Virus record (IMG/VR): IMGVR_UViG_3300032157_000001
Coordinates: 124,001-188,000 of that record
From: a virus
Length of the DNA: 64,000 nt
Reading direction: 5' to 3' (one strand)
The position numbers and the translations under genes were made by a program. Positions 4,353 to 54,063 of this stretch are shown piece after piece. Every line of letters begins with the position of its first letter. The first letter of the stretch is position 1. The notes under the pieces are model-generated. The model was not told where the DNA came from and did no database searches. It was given only the letters and a program-made list of their open reading frames with translations.

Positions 4353-7300
4353 TTGGGTAAGGTAAAAGTCATTAATCGAAGACAAGGTTCTGATCTCATT
4401 GGTGCAAACTTTAGAAACGTTGCATCGGAGACTGTATTCACTTTCGGCAGATTCACTGTTGATACAAATTTTGCCGTTAGAAGAATTCGTAATTATGGCG
4501 ACACATTAAGCTCTTTTGTCACCCCAATCACCCTAGAAACACTTAATATTAATGAAACCGATTCGAAGTTAATCTACAACTACAACCAAGAAGTTGTGTT
4601 GAATTTCGATAAGTCTGATCTCACAGCATATGCTAGATTTGGATCATTGAGCGAGTCACTTCGTGTTGCTGTTGAAAACATTATCATTAAATTCCCCGCA
4701 AGCGTATATGTAACGTTCCAAATATCGTCATTTGTGAACTTGATGAGTGTCACAAACTACTCATACGATGTTACAAAAGACACAGCACTATTTACCATTC
4801 CATATCCGGCTTTGGTGAATAAATTTGGAATTGTGATGAATCAAGGTAACAACCAAATTCCTCAAGATGATCCGATAAGAAATTTAAATCTCTCATATCC
4901 AGAATACATAATTTGGAGAGAAGAAAATCCATCCGGAGATACTTTTGAAATCATTGAGTATACCGGTTACACCCAAACATATCCGTTTGTTAATGTAAAA
5001 GTAAAGGGAGACCCATTCCCTGAATTGTCTGCATCAACACAAGGTCAATTCAATTACCACATAAAACCAAAACCTCTATACTACAACAAATTCATAAAGA
5101 ATTTGCCAGCATTAGAGGCGTACATGCTCAACACAAAACTTCCGAAAGGGTATCAAACCGAATTTCAAACCCCTACTGAGCTTGAAGATGGTAGTGTGAG
5201 CTACAACCAACAATTAATTGTTTGGCCAGCGGGTGATGGATACAACATTGATATAGCCGGTTACAATTACGATTTATTTCTTAATCAACTAGGATCAATT
5301 GGTTCTTTGTTTGATCAATTTAAATCTGATCTTATAGCAAGAATGCTTGTGCCGGAATCCATGATGGAAAACGACAACACTGATGAAGGTAAGGTACAAA
5401 AACTGTTAAGAATCTACGGTAAAACATTTGACAATATAAAATTGTACATTGATGCTATCGTTACAATCAATAAACTTTCTTACAACAAAAATAAGAACAT
5501 ACCTGACATACTTGTAAAAAACTTTGCAAGAACATTAGGGTGGGATGTTACCACTTTGGTTGCGGATGACGATCTTCTTGATAGTTTTTTTTCAACACAA
5601 GCAAAAACATCCACAGACCTTTTACCACCAGAAGTGGATATTGAATTGTGGAGAAGAATTTTAATAAACACAAATTACCTCTTCAAAACCAAAGGAACTA
5701 GAGAAGCAATCAAGACTATGTTTCTTATGGTTGGTATTCCTGATCCTTTTATCAACATTAGTGAATACGTCTATACTGTAAGTGGAAAAATTGACCCAAA
5801 TACCGTTACTGTAAGTCTAGCAGACCTACCTTCAGCCTCATTGCCATATAACAGCCTAGGTAATCCGGTTGCCCCAAAAGAAACCAAATCATTCTACTTC
5901 CAAATTAGTGGTAGTACGGATTCTGGTCAGGCATACATGGATAATTTCAGAAACGTTGGTTTTGTTTTAAACCGCACCAATGATAATAAAAAATCTTGGG
6001 TTAAGGCAGGTACTGTCGAAAGAGTTCATTATACCACTCCAAATTATTATCAGGTTGATAGTGATTTGGTACTGAACACAAAAGAAGTTGATGTTACTTT
6101 AGATATTGCACGTGGTATCGAATATGACGTGTATAAATATAACGTGGAGAACAATTTCCCGTTAACAAGTAGTGGAGTAACAGAACCATATCTTTATATC
6201 AACATCCCGTTCACCTATGGTGCGTCTGCAAACACATTCACAATACCGGAAGTACCACAAGGTGATATACAACTCAACTTTAATGGTGTTACGTTAGTTA
6301 GAGGAACATTAAGTGGTGACACTGCAGCAACTGCTGACTACTACATAAATCCATTCAACAGTCAGCAAGCAATTTTATTTAGTGGTGTCGCTCAAACATA
6401 TACTAATGGGTATAAAGACATCATAACGTTGACTTATGGGAAAGATCAGTCTTCTGGTGGAACATACAATCAGGTAGACTATGTTGTTACAAGAGCAACA
6501 TCAAATCCGGGTGGTATAAGTATACCTTTGCTTGAACAACCATTAGGTGAAGTTCAGTTAGTTGTAAATGGTGTAACACTTACAAAAAGTAGTTCATTGT
6601 TTACTGGTGACTATGTTATCAATCCGGGCAATCCTTTGGAGATATTGATTGTGAATAATTCTCTGAAGACATATTTGATTTCGAACCCTATCGTTACGAT
6701 ATGCTATATCAAATCACCAGCCTCTGAACCGATTTTGAAAAAATCTGAGGTGTTTAGAGTTGATAGCTTTTCGTCAGCGAAGTTTTATTTCAATGTTGGT
6801 ATTGGAAAATATGTCTATTTGTTAGATTATGAGCCACCAGACGTAAAGGCTGTCAAGATAGTTATAAATGGGTTTACCCTTCAAAATGGAACTGACTTTA
6901 CGTTGAATTTTTCAAATAGAAAACAAGTATATTTGAATACTTCATCTGTCGGTTTAGGGTACATCATAAACGCATTCTACGTAACCTCAACAGGAACAAC
7001 CACAGGAATAAATTTTGGTAATTACGTGTTGCCAAACATGTCTCAGATAAGTTTCTTGGAATACCTTGAAATTATCAACAGAAGACTTATCAACGTTAAA
7101 AATAGAAAAACGTTGAGTGATCACGAAGGTGGTATATATCCAACGGTTCAAAAAATTTACGAAGAGTATTTGAAGAGAGCTTATGCAGAAGCGCCTATAG
7201 TGCCGAGTCATGGATATACTTTTGGAACAGTATACCCATTCATCAATAGATTCAATTCATTCTTTCATAGATTTATTGAACAATTGTTGAGTGCAACAAT

Positions 7301-7979
7301 CATTCTGAAGAAGGGTGGGGTTCTTATTAGAAATACTGCATTTACTAGACAGAAATTTCCATATAGAAGAGGTGTTAACTTTGATCCATCATTGAACTAC
7401 TTAGGTGATGATGGAAGTGAATTTAGAAAAAAAGTACCGGAGTATGGAATTGATTTTGTGTGGTCAGGATTAACTTGTGTATATGTACCAGATACTGGAA
7501 CAACCACAACCACGACCACAACTTTAATTCCAACGGGGACAACAACCACCACTACAACAACAACGACTACGACCACAACGACTACGACAACCACTACTAC
7601 TACCACTTCGTTGCCAACGCATTTCCTTGAGGGTCAAATTGTTTTCAATGACACCGCAGGTACTGTAGATTATAGAGTTTATTTTGATGCTACAGTTGGT
7701 GATCACACAATCAATTTAAGTGCAGGGTCTATGGGTGCTGACTATGGAAGTTATGGTGGACTACCTCCATCTGGTAGTAATAACGTATATTGTGAAGTTG
7801 AAAAAGAGGATAGTGGTGGTATAGCTGTAGGTAATGTTACTATTGAGTGGTTTGTGAATGGTGCCTCTGTTAATATAGTAAATATAATTGCTGGTAATCC
7901 TGTTGCAACACAAGTCTATACGTTTATTGGATTAACCGGTGGTGAATCACTTAAAGTCGAAATCTTAGAAGAAGTTTAA
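4353..7979 (+). CDS. Large baseplate wedge-like protein with poly-Thr linker
   Basis: This 1208-residue protein probably forms the outer wedge. Around residues 330-480 it has a helical region ending in LWRRILINTNYLFKTKGT, a pattern seen in tail-protein-I-like and gp7-type subunits of contractile tails. The middle is beta-rich with repeated units (QxQLxxNGVTLxxGxxFxxDYxINP-like, near residues 640-690, 725-760 and 830-860). Near residue 1050 there are 8 consecutive Thr, a five-residue spacer and 23 more Thr, then a beta-sandwich-like domain of about 120 residues to the end. The Thr tracts use all four ACN codons. Start is TTG at 4353, placed 16 nt after a GTATTTAT box; no closer ATG is in frame. 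The terminal domain after the Thr linker could be an exposed receptor- or glycan-contacting module. Confidence 0.65.
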   Translation: MGKVKVINRRQGSDLIGANFRNVASETVFTFGRFTVDTNFAVRRIRNYGDTLSSFVTPITLETLNINETDSKLIYNYNQEVVLNFDKSDLTAYARFGSLSESLRVAVENIIIKFPASVYVTFQISSFVNLMSVTNYSYDVTKDTALFTIPYPALVNKFGIVMNQGNNQIPQDDPIRNLNLSYPEYIIWREENPSGDTFEIIEYTGYTQTYPFVNVKVKGDPFPELSASTQGQFNYHIKPKPLYYNKFIKNLPALEAYMLNTKLPKGYQTEFQTPTELEDGSVSYNQQLIVWPAGDGYNIDIAGYNYDLFLNQLGSIGSLFDQFKSDLIARMLVPESMMENDNTDEGKVQKLLRIYGKTFDNIKLYIDAIVTINKLSYNKNKNIPDILVKNFARTLGWDVTTLVADDDLLDSFFSTQAKTSTDLLPPEVDIELWRRILINTNYLFKTKGTREAIKTMFLMVGIPDPFINISEYVYTVSGKIDPNTVTVSLADLPSASLPYNSLGNPVAPKETKSFYFQISGSTDSGQAYMDNFRNVGFVLNRTNDNKKSWVKAGTVERVHYTTPNYYQVDSDLVLNTKEVDVTLDIARGIEYDVYKYNVENNFPLTSSGVTEPYLYINIPFTYGASANTFTIPEVPQGDIQLNFNGVTLVRGTLSGDTAATADYYINPFNSQQAILFSGVAQTYTNGYKDIITLTYGKDQSSGGTYNQVDYVVTRATSNPGGISIPLLEQPLGEVQLVVNGVTLTKSSSLFTGDYVINPGNPLEILIVNNSLKTYLISNPIVTICYIKSPASEPILKKSEVFRVDSFSSAKFYFNVGIGKYVYLLDYEPPDVKAVKIVINGFTLQNGTDFTLNFSNRKQVYLNTSSVGLGYIINAFYVTSTGTTTGINFGNYVLPNMSQISFLEYLEIINRRLINVKNRKTLSDHEGGIYPTVQKIYEEYLKRAYAEAPIVPSHGYTFGTVYPFINRFNSFFHRFIEQLLSATIILKKGGVLIRNTAFTRQKFPYRRGVNFDPSLNYLGDDGSEFRKKVPEYGIDFVWSGLTCVYVPDTGTTTTTTTTLIPTGTTTTTTTTTTTTTTTTTTTTTTTSLPTHFLEGQIVFNDTAGTVDYRVYFDATVGDHTINLSAGSMGADYGSYGGLPPSGSNNVYCEVEKEDSGGIAVGNVTIEWFVNGASVNIVNIIAGNPVATQVYTFIGLTGGESLKVEILEEV
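7500..7607 (+). repeat. ACN codon tract encoding 8 + 23 threonines
   Basis: Bases 7500-7523 encode 8 Thr and 7539-7607 encode 23 Thr, separated by codons for Leu-Ile-Pro-Thr-Gly. ACA, ACC, ACG and ACT are mixed without a simple period, so the tract is conserved at the protein level rather than being a plain trinucleotide microsatellite. The reverse strand reads as a spurious poly-Val frame. Confidence 0.9.
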
Positions 7980-7980
7980 A

Positions 7981-9390
7981 ATGGCACAGGACGGCGCATT
8001 TAGAAGAGCACTCATAATAAAAACGACAACAACAGAAACTGTCGATTTCTTTGGTAATATCATTATTGATACTATAACGGATTACTATGACTTAAAAGAT
8101 GCGTTTTCTGGTACAAGCACAATTACGAACAATCCTATTACATATCCGTTAATTAACGAGTCACAATTAGCAACAATGTCTGATCTTGACTATGACACAA
8201 GACGTGATGATTTTCTTTATAATTTACCAACTATAACTCCATTACAAATAAGTGGATTGACAACAGGTTCTACTGGTATTGATTTATTTGAATGTCCTAT
8301 ATCGACAACAACTACAACAACTACCACTACGACCACGACTACAACAACTACCACTACGACCACAACAGTTGCCCCCGTATTCTTCTGGATAACAAAAGAC
8401 AAAAATGGTATTGTGGAGAGATCAAGTAATGGTGGGGTAACTTGGGTGGATAAGTCAATACCTCCGATTATGATAACTCCGGGTATTAGCGGATTAAATC
8501 TTATTGACATGCGTTTTGTGGGTCAGGTTGGATATTACTTGGGCAGATATAGAACAGGAGGATTTGTGGATATAGCACAACTATTTAAAACTGTGGATGG
8601 TGGCGACACATGGACTGATGTCTCTGCGGGACTAGCATTTATTGGTGGTATTGGTGTACTCTCGTTGTTGACAATGTTTGTTGTAGATGCAAACACTATT
8701 TGGATAGGAACATCGTTAAGCGAAACATTGGTCTACAAAAGCATCGATGGTGGAACAACATTCTCTTCGTTTGTTAAGACCGCATACATGTTTATTAATA
8801 AGTATGAATTCCAATCACCAACTGTTGCATATGCAATTAATCAAAGTCCAATAATTGGCGGCAGCGTTCCTGTTGCAAAATCGTCTGTTGGGGGATTTGC
8901 ATTGGCTGCAACTCCTGCAGCAATATCATCTGCCTTTGACATAGGGGTGTTGGGCAATACCGTCATCGTGGCTGGTGGTACAACAATCATCAAATCTACG
9001 AATGCGGGAGCATCATTTGGCGATCCAATCAATTTACCTGAGCCTAGTTTCTTTATATTTGGATTAAAATATTTATCTGATGGTGTTCTTATAGCGTGTG
9101 GTATTAGTGGTGATGGACTAAACAACAAAATCGCAAGATCGGTTGATGGCGGGTTGAACTGGACGATAACAACAATGGTAATAACTCCCGCAACCGGAGT
9201 TGTACAAAGTTTACCAAACAATAAAGTAATTGAATTCCAAGATAACAATAATGGGGCAATCATATTGTCAAATGGAACGTTGACAAACATATGGTACACT
9301 GTTGATGGTGGGTTGAATTGGATTGTTAGTCCAACAACTTTAGGTAATAATGCCAAAAGCATAAGTACCGCAAGAAATCCTTTGGTATAA
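7981..9390 (+). CDS. Tail protein: poly-Thr linker plus Asp-box (BNR) beta-propeller
   Basis: The 469-residue product has three parts. Residues 1-108 form an N-terminal domain that probably anchors it to the virion. Residues 109-129 are 21 consecutive Thr. The rest carries repeated Asp-box motifs of the S-x-D-G-G-x-x-W/F type: SSNGGVTW, TVDGGDTW, SIDGGTTF, SVDGGLNW and TVDGGLNW, spaced 50-100 residues apart. Such repeats build sialidase/YCF48-like beta-propellers, which in phages often bind or cleave surface glycans; catalytic sialidase residues were not identified, so binding is the safer guess. ATG one base after the preceding stop. The two glycosyltransferase-like genes follow with a 1-base overlap. 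Confidence 0.7.
   Translation: MAQDGAFRRALIIKTTTTETVDFFGNIIIDTITDYYDLKDAFSGTSTITNNPITYPLINESQLATMSDLDYDTRRDDFLYNLPTITPLQISGLTTGSTGIDLFECPISTTTTTTTTTTTTTTTTTTTTTVAPVFFWITKDKNGIVERSSNGGVTWVDKSIPPIMITPGISGLNLIDMRFVGQVGYYLGRYRTGGFVDIAQLFKTVDGGDTWTDVSAGLAFIGGIGVLSLLTMFVVDANTIWIGTSLSETLVYKSIDGGTTFSSFVKTAYMFINKYEFQSPTVAYAINQSPIIGGSVPVAKSSVGGFALAATPAAISSAFDIGVLGNTVIVAGGTTIIKSTNAGASFGDPINLPEPSFFIFGLKYLSDGVLIACGISGDGLNNKIARSVDGGLNWTITTMVITPATGVVQSLPNNKVIEFQDNNNGAIILSNGTLTNIWYTVDGGLNWIVSPTTLGNNAKSISTARNPLV
8305..8367 (+). repeat. ACN tract encoding 21 threonines, built from a duplicated 27-bp unit
   Basis: Codons at 8311-8337 and 8338-8364 are the same nine-codon series apart from one third-position G/A change, showing growth by tandem duplication of 27 bp. 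All four Thr codons occur. Confidence 0.9.
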
Positions 9391-10313
9391 TGAAATTTTT
9401 ATCCGCACAATCTGACAATGACTACAACATATGGCAGCTTCAAGTTCAAATGTACAACTTTAAAAAATTTGGAATTGAAGATAAGTCTATTGTGTTGATC
9501 GGATATAACCCCACAATTGGTGTTAGTGCAAGAGCATTGGACTTTAAAAACACAACAACTGCAATGGTTATATTTTTACCTGATGATCGTGACTTGTCTG
9601 ATAGGTTATACACACCTAGTATTCGACCACATTTAATTAAACAGATTTATAAGCTTTATCCTGATTTATTAGAAAATAGAGCAATTCTTTATCATGACTG
9701 TGACATTATTTTCATAAAATTACCACATGTTAAGGATTTGGTGACCAAAAGAAAAATATATGTTAGTGATATAAATATGTTTACTGCAATAAAACCGGAA
9801 TTACCTCTACTAAAGGAGATGTGTAAAATTGTTGGTATACCATCATCTATGGTCATAAGAAACGAAAAGGGAATGGGTGGTGCACAATACCTGTTTAATT
9901 CTGCACTGAATTTCTCCTATGATTTTTGGGAAAAAATAGAGGTTGATTCAAATAATTTGTATAAATTTCTATTGGTTAGTGGAGAGAAATATGGACAAAA
10001 TATTGTCGACCATGCATGGTCTGCGGATATGTGGGCTATTTTGTGGAATATCTGGTTACTTGGAGTAGACACAGAAGTGAGCAGTGAATTGTCATTCACT
10101 TTAGCAACAAGTCCAATTGATGATTTGGAGAAAAACAATATCTACCACAACGCTGGTGTTGATGCGTCAACCTCTAATGAATTATTTTATAAAAGAAAAT
10201 ACTTGCATGATTCTCCCTTTGATGTAGATTTGTCGTATGTTGATGGTAGATTTTGTTCCTCATTTTATGCGAGAGAAATAATGGAAGCCGGTGAGTATTA
10301 TAAAAATAAGTAA
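9390..10313 (+). CDS. Glycosyltransferase-like protein A (DxD motif)
   Basis: The 307-residue product has the look of a small GT-A enzyme: an N-terminal segment SAQSDNDYNIWQLQVQMYNF, then beta/alpha units and, near residue 103, a hydrophobic strand ending in a D-C-D motif (ILYHDCDIIF), the metal and nucleotide-sugar site of many glycosyltransferases. Later conserved blocks are GGAQYLF, HAWSADMWAILW and IYHNAG. The Y-x-x-W-Q plus F-K-K pattern at the N-terminus recalls, from memory, plant hydroxyproline/serine O-glycosyltransferases (GT95/GT96); this is unverified. It is paralogous to the next gene and overlaps by one base the poly-Thr tail gene. Role inferred: glycosylation of tail threonines. 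Alternative: modification of host glycans. Confidence 0.6.
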   Translation: MKFLSAQSDNDYNIWQLQVQMYNFKKFGIEDKSIVLIGYNPTIGVSARALDFKNTTTAMVIFLPDDRDLSDRLYTPSIRPHLIKQIYKLYPDLLENRAILYHDCDIIFIKLPHVKDLVTKRKIYVSDINMFTAIKPELPLLKEMCKIVGIPSSMVIRNEKGMGGAQYLFNSALNFSYDFWEKIEVDSNNLYKFLLVSGEKYGQNIVDHAWSADMWAILWNIWLLGVDTEVSSELSFTLATSPIDDLEKNNIYHNAGVDASTSNELFYKRKYLHDSPFDVDLSYVDGRFCSSFYAREIMEAGEYYKNK

Positions 10314-10316
10314 ATT

Positions 10317-11240
10317 ATGAAATTCATATCAGCACAACCAGATAGCGACTATTTTGTGTGGCAAGTCAGAGTTCAAATGAACAATTTTAAAAAATTCGAC
10401 ATCGAAAAAGATGCGATTGTTCTATTTGCATATGATAAGAAAATTAATCCCAATGCAAAAAAATTACTCAAGGAAACGAAGGCAACTATCATCTTTATCC
10501 AAGACAAGAGAACTGCAGCGCAAAGAAATTATATTCCTTCAGTAAGACCACACATCATAAAAGAATTTTTCGGAAATTATCGTAATTTAGTTGATGGACA
10601 TGATATTTTTTATCATGATTGTGATATTATATTCTCTTCATTGCCAGATTTTAATACCATGAGCCAAAATGGTGAAATAACTGTTAGTGACACAATTTCA
10701 TATTTAGGTGCTCATTATATTAACTCAAAAGGAAAAGGATTACTAGAAGAGATGTGTTCGGTTGTTGGTATCGAACCAGACTTGGTTGTGAAGAATGAAA
10801 AGAAGACCGGTGGTGCTCAATATTACATCCCATCCTCTGTTACTATGGATTATGTTTTTTGGAATAAGATCGAGCGAGACTCAATTGCTCTTTTTGATTT
10901 AATGGTGAAAACAAGCAAGAAGTACACACCGTCACATCCGATCCAATCATGGACTGCTGATATGTGGGCTTTACTTTGGAGTTTTTGGGCTAAAGGGTAT
11001 GATAGTGTAATTTCAAAAGAACTAGCATTTTCATGGCCAACATTAGAAGTGGAAAAATGGAATGAACAACATATTTTTCATAATGCTGGTGTTACTCCCG
11101 ATAGAGGGGATTTATTCTACAAAGGAGCTTTTATAAAGGCATCACCATTCAATTCAAACCATGAAAACGTGAGTCCAAGATTCTGTTCGATAAAATATGT
11201 GGAGGAAATAATGGAGACTGCGAAACTTCTAAAAAAGTAG
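10317..11240 (+). CDS. Glycosyltransferase-like protein B (DxD motif), paralogue of A
   Basis: Exactly as long as protein A (307 residues) and co-linear with it: SAQPDSDYFVWQVRVQMNNF at the N-terminus, FYHDCDIIF near residue 101, GGAQYYI, SWTADMWALLW, IFHNAG, and a C-terminal SPRFCS-x-x-Y-x-x-E-I-M-E segment. The two differ widely elsewhere, so the duplication is old or the copies have separate acceptors or donors. The ATG lies 3 nt after the stop of gene A. No signal peptide or membrane segment, so action would be in the host cytoplasm before or during virion assembly. The functional assignment rests on the DCD motif and shared architecture. Confidence 0.6.
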   Translation: MKFISAQPDSDYFVWQVRVQMNNFKKFDIEKDAIVLFAYDKKINPNAKKLLKETKATIIFIQDKRTAAQRNYIPSVRPHIIKEFFGNYRNLVDGHDIFYHDCDIIFSSLPDFNTMSQNGEITVSDTISYLGAHYINSKGKGLLEEMCSVVGIEPDLVVKNEKKTGGAQYYIPSSVTMDYVFWNKIERDSIALFDLMVKTSKKYTPSHPIQSWTADMWALLWSFWAKGYDSVISKELAFSWPTLEVEKWNEQHIFHNAGVTPDRGDLFYKGAFIKASPFNSNHENVSPRFCSIKYVEEIMETAKLLKK

Positions 11241-51436: not shown

Positions 51437-51906
51437 AAATAATCTACGTAGACATCGATGGGCCACTAGCAACTGATGACAGTGCTAAAATTGTGGAAAA
51501 AACAAAGTGGCATCCGAAACTCTATCGTATGGATTCAAAATGTGTGACTGTATTAAATGAGATTATTACAGAAACAGGGTGCGAATTGGTTGTTTCTTCA
51601 GATTGGAGAGTTCATTTTAATCTAACCGAACTTGGTGAAATATTCGAATGGAATGGTGTCATCAAAAAACCGGTTAATGTAACGCCACAGGAATGTATAT
51701 CTTTCAGTGACAAAGCAAGGAACAGAATACATCAAATCAAATTATCAATCAATGAAATTAAACCCGAAAAATGGGTTAGCATTGACGACCTTCCATTAGG
51801 TCAGCAGTACTACAGTACTGGTCTACCATGCTTTGTTGAGTGTGAGCCAATAGCTGGAATTAGTCGTGAGGGAATCAAAGAGTCGATATTAAAGTTTTTG
51901 AATTAA
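51433..51906 (+). CDS. HAD-family phosphatase, RNA-repair type
   Basis: The 157-residue product has HAD motif I D7-I-D9-G-P-L, motif II VVSSDWR (near residue 55) and motif IV SIDDLP (near residue 116). The S-S-D-W-R block is typical of the HAD domain found in Swiss-army-knife RNA repair proteins (PF18143-like), which is thought to remove terminal phosphates. Start is GTG at 51433 overlapping the previous stop. With two ligases close by, RNA end-healing is the likely job. Confidence 0.75.
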   Translation: MKIIYVDIDGPLATDDSAKIVEKTKWHPKLYRMDSKCVTVLNEIITETGCELVVSSDWRVHFNLTELGEIFEWNGVIKKPVNVTPQECISFSDKARNRIHQIKLSINEIKPEKWVSIDDLPLGQQYYSTGLPCFVECEPIAGISREGIKESILKFLN

Positions 51907-52939: not shown

Positions 52940-53269
52940 ATGAGCATAGCGGACGGAGACGGGAATGTATACACAATTCAAAAGCCCGAAGAACTTTTAA
53001 AGACCATTGATAAGGACAGTATGTTGTCTGTATTACAGACCACATATGTTGCAAAATGCACCAATGAAAATATTTCTGCTATGATCAAAATGGGGCTGAT
53101 CGAAAGAGTTAATGGTGATGCAAATGAAGATGTGTTTGCAACCTCATTGGGTGAGGGTGTTGAATTTCTTAAAGCTCATTTGATTGAAGTTTTTAATATT
53201 GAAACAGTTGAGGCTGCAATTAAGGAGGCTCACGAGAATATATACGGTAGCAATGAGAGCGAAAAATAA
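52940..53269 (+). CDS. Unknown protein
   Basis: The 109-residue product is mostly helical and acidic. No family is recognised. It overlaps the next gene by 17 bases and follows the AAA+ gene, so it may be its partner. Confidence 0.45.
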   Translation: MSIADGDGNVYTIQKPEELLKTIDKDSMLSVLQTTYVAKCTNENISAMIKMGLIERVNGDANEDVFATSLGEGVEFLKAHLIEVFNIETVEAAIKEAHENIYGSNESEK

Positions 53270-53570
53270 GTCAATACTCTCTGTAATGTTTGTATCTCTA
53301 ATCATGCATTCACTTTGCTGTGTCATGCCGGTGGTCTGTTTTTTTATAGGACTAACGAGTGCTGGTCAGTTTTTTGGCGCTTTTCACAGATACGAGAGCA
53401 TTTTTATCGTGCTTAACTTGGTCTCAATTGCGTTCGGATACTATATGTATTACTTGCACAAATATTCGACCTGTAACCACAGACATTGTCACCCAAATAA
53501 AAAACCTTTTTGGATTATTAGTGGAATATCACTATTTTTAATGGTTCTTCCACATCTTTTAACCCGCTAA
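53253..53570 (+). CDS. Small membrane protein, MerC/MerT-like Cys pattern
   Basis: The 105-residue product (ATG 53253 preferred) has three membrane segments and paired Cys (HSLCCVMPVVCFF) plus a Cys/His loop (TCNHRHCH). This resembles mercury-type small transporters (MerC/MerT), which use Cys pairs to pass metal ions. The match is loose; a redox or metal role is inferred. Confidence 0.4.
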   Translation: MRAKNKSILSVMFVSLIMHSLCCVMPVVCFFIGLTSAGQFFGAFHRYESIFIVLNLVSIAFGYYMYYLHKYSTCNHRHCHPNKKPFWIISGISLFLMVLPHLLTR

Positions 53571-53571
53571 T

Positions 53572-54063
53572 ATGCAACGCGAAATCGAAAGAAAATTTTT
53601 GGTATCTCCTGAGAATTTTTCTCTAACCAAAGATGGAATGTTAATTGCTGAACTTAACATCACACAAGGTTACCTATCAAAAGTTGCTGGTCGAATTGTT
53701 AGAGTTCGACATACAGTATCAGCTACAGCATCGGTTGGTAAGAAAACCTCATCAGCTAAAATGACTTTTAAATTGAAGGATGGTGCTGATAGTGGTGTTG
53801 GTATTGATGAGTATGAATATGAAATTCCGGAGAATGATGGAATTAACATACTCAAGCATTGCGAAGCTCCATTAATCGAAAAAACCAGATACCTCATTCT
53901 AAAAGAAAATTCGCTGTGGGAGGTTGATGTTTTTCATGGGCATAAAGAGGGACTTATTGTCGCAGAGATTGAGTTGAAAGATATTAATGATCCTATTGAT
54001 ATGCCAACGTGGATCGGCGAAGAAGTCACAGGAGTCAAAGAGTACAGTAACGCAAACATGTAA
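53572..54063 (+). CDS. CYTH / triphosphate tunnel metalloenzyme
   Basis: The 163-residue product opens with the defining E-I-E-R-K-F-L motif (residues 4-10) and has the alternating basic/acidic strands of the tunnel (RIVRVRHT, KMTFKLKDG, DEYEYEIP, LIEKTRYLI, EVDVFHG, VAEIELK). CYTH enzymes hydrolyse triphosphates (thiamine triphosphate, polyphosphate or RNA 5' ends) or make cAMP. Given RNA ligases and a HAD phosphatase nearby, an RNA 5'-triphosphatase role is possible. It overlaps the next gene by one base. Confidence 0.85.
   Translation: MQREIERKFLVSPENFSLTKDGMLIAELNITQGYLSKVAGRIVRVRHTVSATASVGKKTSSAKMTFKLKDGADSGVGIDEYEYEIPENDGINILKHCEAPLIEKTRYLILKENSLWEVDVFHGHKEGLIVAEIELKDINDPIDMPTWIGEEVTGVKEYSNANM

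Follow-up and report, generated by a model that had tools for sequence, protein, structure and literature searches.

A window of 64,000 nucleotides (nt) from a jumbo phage, positions 124001-188000 of the 371.5-kb virus record IMGVR_UViG_3300032157_000001, contains two adjacent tail genes with long tracts of pure threonine (Thr) and, directly after them, two paralogous genes of the phage protein family phrog_4417, referred to here as GT-alpha and GT-beta. Among the relatives compared by sequence, this glycosyltransferase (GT)-like family is found, across many unrelated phages, almost exclusively alongside capsid or tail proteins with Thr runs. The locus is quite probably a phage-encoded module for virion O-glycosylation, in which the phrog_4417 enzyme would glycosylate Thr tags on virion proteins. 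A first-pass annotation of the DNA had proposed that the phage glycosylates its own tail linkers, and this proposal is now supported at the level of anatomy, predicted fold and comparative genomics. Coordinates are those of the window unless marked "record".

The locus and its threonine tracts

Genes for gp25-like and gp6-like baseplate wedge proteins (T4) are followed on the plus strand by the two tail open reading frames (ORFs) and then by the two paralogues of 307 amino acids (aa). The features are as follows.

4353-7979 (+): tail/baseplate-region protein of 1208 aa with Thr runs of 8 and 23, downstream of the baseplate wedge genes; proposed acceptor
7500-7523 (+): 8-Thr tract in ORF 4353-7979
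7539-7607 (+): 23-Thr tract with mixed Thr codons in ORF 4353-7979
7981-9390 (+): tail protein of 469 aa with one Thr run (21); proposed acceptor
8305-8367 (+): 21-Thr tract in ORF 7981-9390, within residues 107-129 with a predicted local distance difference test score (pLDDT) <50
8380-9387 (+): beta-propeller domain (limits approximate), proposed tip/adhesin domain
9390-10313 (+): GT-alpha, phrog_4417 glycosyltransferase-like paralogue of 307 aa; one base of its ATG is shared with the preceding stop
9696-9704 (+): Asp-x-Asp (DxD) motif of GT-alpha (D-C-D, residues 103-105)
10317-11240 (+): GT-beta, phrog_4417 glycosyltransferase of 307 aa, beginning 3 nt after the end of GT-alpha; all family-invariant residues are present
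10617-10625 (+): DxD motif of GT-beta (D-C-D, residues 101-103)

The pure-Thr tracts of 8, 23 and 21 residues in two adjacent tail genes, the D-C-D motif at a matching place in two 307-residue paralogues and the enzyme gene that overlaps or nearly touches the tail gene had all been described in the first-pass annotation, and each of these was found exactly so in the ORFs. The tracts had also been read as linkers before a C-terminal domain. This description can be refined, as the domain after the 21-Thr tract is a BNR/YCF48-like beta-propeller and the linker is predicted to be disordered. The 469-aa protein thus comprises an N-terminal virion domain of ~105 aa, the disordered Thr linker and the propeller, which is closest to YCF48 in a predicted model of moderate confidence (mean pLDDT 72). 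In the 1208-aa protein, a conserved core of ~1030 aa is followed by the Thr tracts and a C-terminal domain of ~120 aa; the core had no match among cultured phages.

All four Thr codons are used in the tracts, like in the rest of both genes, and the 23-Thr run contains ACA 7, ACT 7, ACC 5 and ACG 4 times. The tracts are therefore not a simple triplet microsatellite, and triplet-repeat slippage was ruled out as their origin. Outside the tracts, Thr makes up 8-11% of the residues in the two tail ORFs, so runs of 21-23 are not due to chance. No homopolymers of more than six residues other than these Thr tracts were found in the long ORFs of the window. The sole further stretch of at least eight ACN codons in the 371.5-kb record lies at ~240160 (record) on the minus strand and encodes T8 in a virion-like ORF of 549 aa (L522:1344-2993 (-), record ~239840-241490), far from the GT genes.

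Co-occurrence of the enzyme and Thr runs

Both window ORFs match phrog_4417 ("prophage pi2 protein 34" of Lactococcus and Enterococcus phages) over their full length (residues 1-300, E=3e-50; residues 1-301, E=2.4e-62). No function is assigned to this family in PHROGs, Pfam or NCBIfam. Relatives were gathered from viral contigs, bacterial genomes and annotated phages; the viral-contig loci are the best-scoring matches, i.e. a non-random sample with several near-duplicates. A Thr run of at least five residues was present near the GT in 112 of 125 phage-context loci. All 619 runs were encoded on the strand of the GT, mostly upstream and within a few kb, with a median nearest distance of 313 nt. 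When runs of at least six identical residues near the GTs were counted, 474 consisted of Thr versus 17 of all other residues combined.

The tagged proteins are mutually unrelated and include major capsid, head-tail connector, tail-tube, decoration-like and long tail proteins. Among 192 ORFs, the tag was C-terminal in 95 and internal in 97. Within a single prophage of bacilli, Thr tails form the C-termini of the capsid, the connector and the tail-tube protein, which are unrelated to one another, and the phage relatives in phrog_4417 adjoin capsid, tail-tube or decoration-like genes with such tails. The window differs from these phages in its two enzyme copies, in belonging to a jumbo phage with T4-like baseplate genes and in Thr tracts that serve as internal linkers. 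The genes adjoining the GT vary among jumbo, Herelleviridae and bacilli phages, and the Thr tract is common to all three.

Matched controls within protein families gave a strong association as well, in agreement with the expectation of the first-pass annotation that GT and poly-Thr genes would co-occur in relatives. Homologues of one capsid and one tail-tube family were fetched by their cores only, without Thr tails or GT, and are counted in the order Thr tail and GT / tail only / GT only / neither. By locus, the counts were 20/0/1/83 for the capsid and 21/0/0/64 for the tail-tube family. Among distinct proteins, they amounted to 15/0/1/72 (p=5e-16) and 17/0/0/54 (p=1e-16), respectively. In the sole capsid exception (L283), the capsid gene is frame-split, and TTTTTTTSA stands at the end of its second piece. 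On the trees, the states of Thr tail and GT switch together at least 10 times for the capsid and at least nine times for the tail tube. Independent pairs on well-supported branches agreed in 7/7 cases for the capsid and in 5/5 for the tail tube, the latter being too few to reach 0.05 alone.

For the family of the window tail protein, the corresponding counts (Thr run and GT / Thr run only / GT only / neither) were 13/1/3/25 (p=2.8e-7). The three rows with GT only (L048, L325 and L320) are all Thr-rich without a run of five. L048 and L325 are two copies of one phage with PTTTEAPTTTEPP repeats. L320, the closest relative of the window, has both GTs and TTAPATTAP linker repeats at the same site as the window tracts.

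Fold and conservation of the enzyme family

GT-alpha was modelled by AlphaFold2 with 67 relatives as alignment, which resulted in a pLDDT of 95.7 and a predicted template modelling score of 0.92. A Foldseek search of this model against the PDB gave 135 matches at E<0.001, and the best 50 of the 135 were all GT-A enzymes. Among the matches listed were glycogenin (E~2e-6), UGGT, XXYLT1 and ABO-type GTs with E values from 2e-6 to 2e-5 and a probability of 1.00; template modelling scores to these PDB enzymes were mostly ~0.4-0.55 at an identity of 9-13%. According to the model, the fold of the enzyme is that of a GT-A glycosyltransferase, as the first-pass annotation had suspected from the DxD motif. 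Glycogenin, UGGT, XXYLT1 and the ABO-type enzymes are retaining glycosyltransferases; an alpha-linked sugar is thus a reasonable guess.

In an alignment of 189 relatives, D103, D105, G164, Q166, W15 and H253 (GT-alpha numbering) are nearly invariant, and D103 and D105 are each kept in 185 of 186 alignable relatives. The DxD motif is located between the predicted strands 99-101 and 106-108. The phrog_4417 enzymes resemble GT8 glycogenin, GT8 XXYLT1 and GT24 UGGT in the fold, in the DxD between core strands and in a conserved His near the C-terminal part. They are unlike them in sequence, so that the similarity is one of fold only, and they form a family separate from GT8 and GT24.

A resemblance to plant hydroxyproline glycosyltransferases had been pointed out in the first-pass annotation. 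It was found again as an N-terminal match (residues 7-120) to the Pfam family HPAT (hydroxyproline O-arabinosyltransferase, PF23452) with E=0.0038. The score of 17.1 bits is below the gathering cut-off of 23.9 and just two of 67 relatives matched at all, and membership in this family was rejected. The likeness to HPAT is thus limited to the N-terminal alignment and to the fact that both enzymes would act on repetitive hydroxyl-bearing peptide tracts. Another domain arrangement was observed on a 299-kb phage contig, where one ORF (L374:14153-16141 (+)) combines the GT domain with a radical SAM-SPASM domain and T11 and T8 runs are located upstream.

GT-alpha and GT-beta

The two paralogues share 43% identity. 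The alpha orthologues (window 9390, L320, L319, L321 and L027) and the beta orthologues (window 10317, L320, L321 and L325) form separate tree groups with moderate support each, and on this tree the duplication is old. The beta enzymes of the window, L320, L321 and L325 keep every key residue. In the alpha group, L320 has lost the second Asp of the DxD motif (DCQ) and has Tyr in place of His, L321 carries Gln166 to Thr and His253 to Asn, and L027, a gene cut by the contig end, carries Gln166 to Ala. GT-alpha of the window has an intact DxD motif; its Phe131 in place of a near-invariant Tyr is unique among the alignable family members, and the segment after Ser126-Asp127 is shortened. GT-beta (10317-11240) is therefore likely the main active enzyme judging by its residues, and GT-alpha (9390-10313) may have an altered specificity or be an accessory pseudo-enzyme. 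The earlier description of the genes as "paired" is right in that two paralogues are present; it may overstate their relation because the clade of the 9390 paralogue degenerates in relatives.

The streptococcal O-linked N-acetylglucosamine (GlcNAc) transferase complex GtfA-GtfB is a model for a pair with a non-catalytic or acceptor-binding partner. By analogy, GT-alpha and GT-beta could form an obligate pair with GT-alpha in this role, which is a sub-version of the glycosylation module and compatible with it. The catalytic residues lost in the three alpha-clade relatives L320, L321 and L027, as well as the unique Phe131 and shortened loop of the window GT-alpha next to intact betas, would fit such a pair. 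In L319, however, the alpha-type enzyme is solitary and intact, the DxD is retained in the window GT-alpha and most phages of the phrog_4417 family have a single GT. An obligate pair is considered rather unlikely.

In the closest relative, the beta orthologue (L320:12929-14650 (+)) carries a fused C-terminal domain that resembles GT2, with a match just short of the Pfam cut-off, which suggests glycan extension. Two GT2-family matches above the Pfam cut-off are encoded elsewhere in the record of the window, at record 51548-51883 and 53177-53632 (+); they are possible glycan-extension enzymes or unrelated ones.

Proposed mechanism and alternative explanations

The phrog_4417 enzyme would be a metal-dependent (DxD), probably retaining GT-A enzyme that uses a nucleotide-sugar as donor and attaches the sugar to Thr hydroxyls in the dense tracts of virion structural proteins. 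In the jumbo phage, the acceptors would be the disordered Thr linkers of the two adjacent tail proteins, which join a virion-anchored core to a C-terminal tip domain; in other phages, they would be the C-terminal Thr tails of major capsid, head-tail connector and tail-tube proteins. Since the same GT family accompanies Thr tails on capsid, connector and tail-tube proteins elsewhere, the Thr tract may act as a portable tag. The modification could make the coat stiff, hydrated, protease-resistant or receptor-shielding; the first-pass annotation had suggested stiffer fibres, protection from proteases or mimicry of host glycans. We infer catalysis, Thr as the acceptor, the sugar and the benefit alike.

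A bolder version of this mechanism falls somewhat short of being probable. Here, poly-Thr would serve as a homopolymeric, portable glyco-tag. Phages with no relation to each other, from jumbo phages and Herelleviridae to siphophages and prophages in Bacillota and Bacteroidota, would put it on any surface-exposed virion protein, and a dedicated, hitherto unrecognised GT family would read it without further sequence context, with the degenerating paralogue as non-catalytic partner in two-enzyme phages. If this were true, GT and tag would be a minimal transferable protein-glycosylation system.

Several observations weigh against Thr glycosylation by the phrog_4417 enzyme. The family profile gave no match to a solved GT among PDB sequences at E up to 10, and direct sequence homology to solved GTs was rejected. 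A reverse scan covered 95 IMG/VR loci, each with at least 11 Thr in a row in frame, and just 12 of them carried a phrog_4417 GT in the fetched stretch. Poly-Thr therefore also exists with other or no local GTs, and the idea that every long poly-Thr tract has a phrog_4417 GT nearby was rejected. When 75 downstream neighbours of GT-less poly-Thr loci were scanned with Pfam and PHROG, most of them were lysis or structural genes, endolysins included; three had a GT2 match and one a GlcNAc-transferase domain. Conversely, the GT was found without a Thr run at L027, which belongs to the lineage of the window, beside the first GT of L321 and at L040, L047, L057 and L077. A relative of the tail protein (L358) has Thr runs and no GT nearby, and the chromosomal homologues of Bacteroidota, which are longer and have two domains, are mostly without Thr tracts.

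These data bear on the explanation that the Thr tracts are mere flexible spacers or low-complexity domain-swap junctions and that the GT acts elsewhere, for instance on host surface glycans or phage DNA. The 83 of 95 loci with poly-Thr and no phrog_4417 GT agree with it, as do the tracts in the lineage of the window, which lie exactly between swappable modules; DNA-glucosylating phage GTs are well known (PMC12619734). Spacers, however, would not track the GT, and capsid and tail-tube Thr tails occurred only with it (20/0 and 21/0 loci; 15/0 and 17/0 proteins). Of the 25 tail-protein relatives that have no GT, most bear C-terminal modules on the same core and no Thr run, and the C-terminal tails of capsid proteins link nothing, which makes the spacer explanation improbable. 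The close linkage could also result from hitchhiking, i.e. a single recombination cassette would comprise the adjacent GT gene and the 3' part of a virion gene that encodes the Thr tail, with no enzyme-substrate relation. The GT is indeed usually located within a few nucleotides of a Thr-tailed gene. Yet in most prophages of the capsid family several genes (~2.1 kb) separate the capsid gene from the GT, and the Thr tail of the capsid protein follows the GT just as well, an argument against simple hitchhiking. L234 differs in that the GT is located after the capsid gene, and here too Thr tails are present on the connector and on an unrelated protein resembling a tail tube. Jumbo, Herelleviridae and bacilli phages share the tract amid different GT neighbours, and a cassette of this kind is very unlikely.

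Relation to known systems

In mycobacteriophages, phage-encoded GTs decorate virion proteins including the C-termini of capsid and tail-tube proteins, according to the work of Freeman et al. (2023) as cited in PMC12619734 and PMC11600133. The likeness to the phrog_4417 phages would lie in phage-encoded GTs and in C-terminal targets on capsid and tail-tube proteins, whose Thr tails track the GT here. A tblastn search with the window GT matched 74 phage records, none of them of Mycobacterium. Virion glycosylation as a kind is thus already known, and the phrog_4417 enzyme family and the Thr-homopolymer tag appear to be undescribed in the literature searched, where neither poly-Thr tags of phages nor the function of phrog_4417 turned up in any paper.

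With glycosylation of Thr tags, a phage family that so far has no assigned function would gain one, as would the puzzling pure-Thr tracts seen in some of the phage proteome. Virion glycosylation by phages would then reach beyond mycobacteriophages to a much wider set of hosts and would bear on adsorption, on immune recognition of therapeutic phages and on particle stability. The claim is testable in culturable phages of Lactococcus, Enterococcus, Lactobacillus and Chryseobacterium; Lactococcus phage CHPC836 is one example, with a phrog_4417 product (QGT53126.1) and Thr-tailed capsid and tail-tube proteins. Glycoengineering would also benefit from a GT that recognises a simple Thr tail.

Poly-Thr in other contexts

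Long poly-Thr was common in phage proteins without a phrog_4417 gene nearby (L402-L521). In Sphingobacterium bovisgrunnientis (L121), a small ORF at 5606-5854 (+) resembles a precursor of a ribosomally synthesised and post-translationally modified peptide with a GG leader, and the motif TTTTTTSS is located shortly after the GG. It lies upstream of a chromosomal gene of the GT family (5992-7572) and possibly encodes a glycosylated peptide outside phages.

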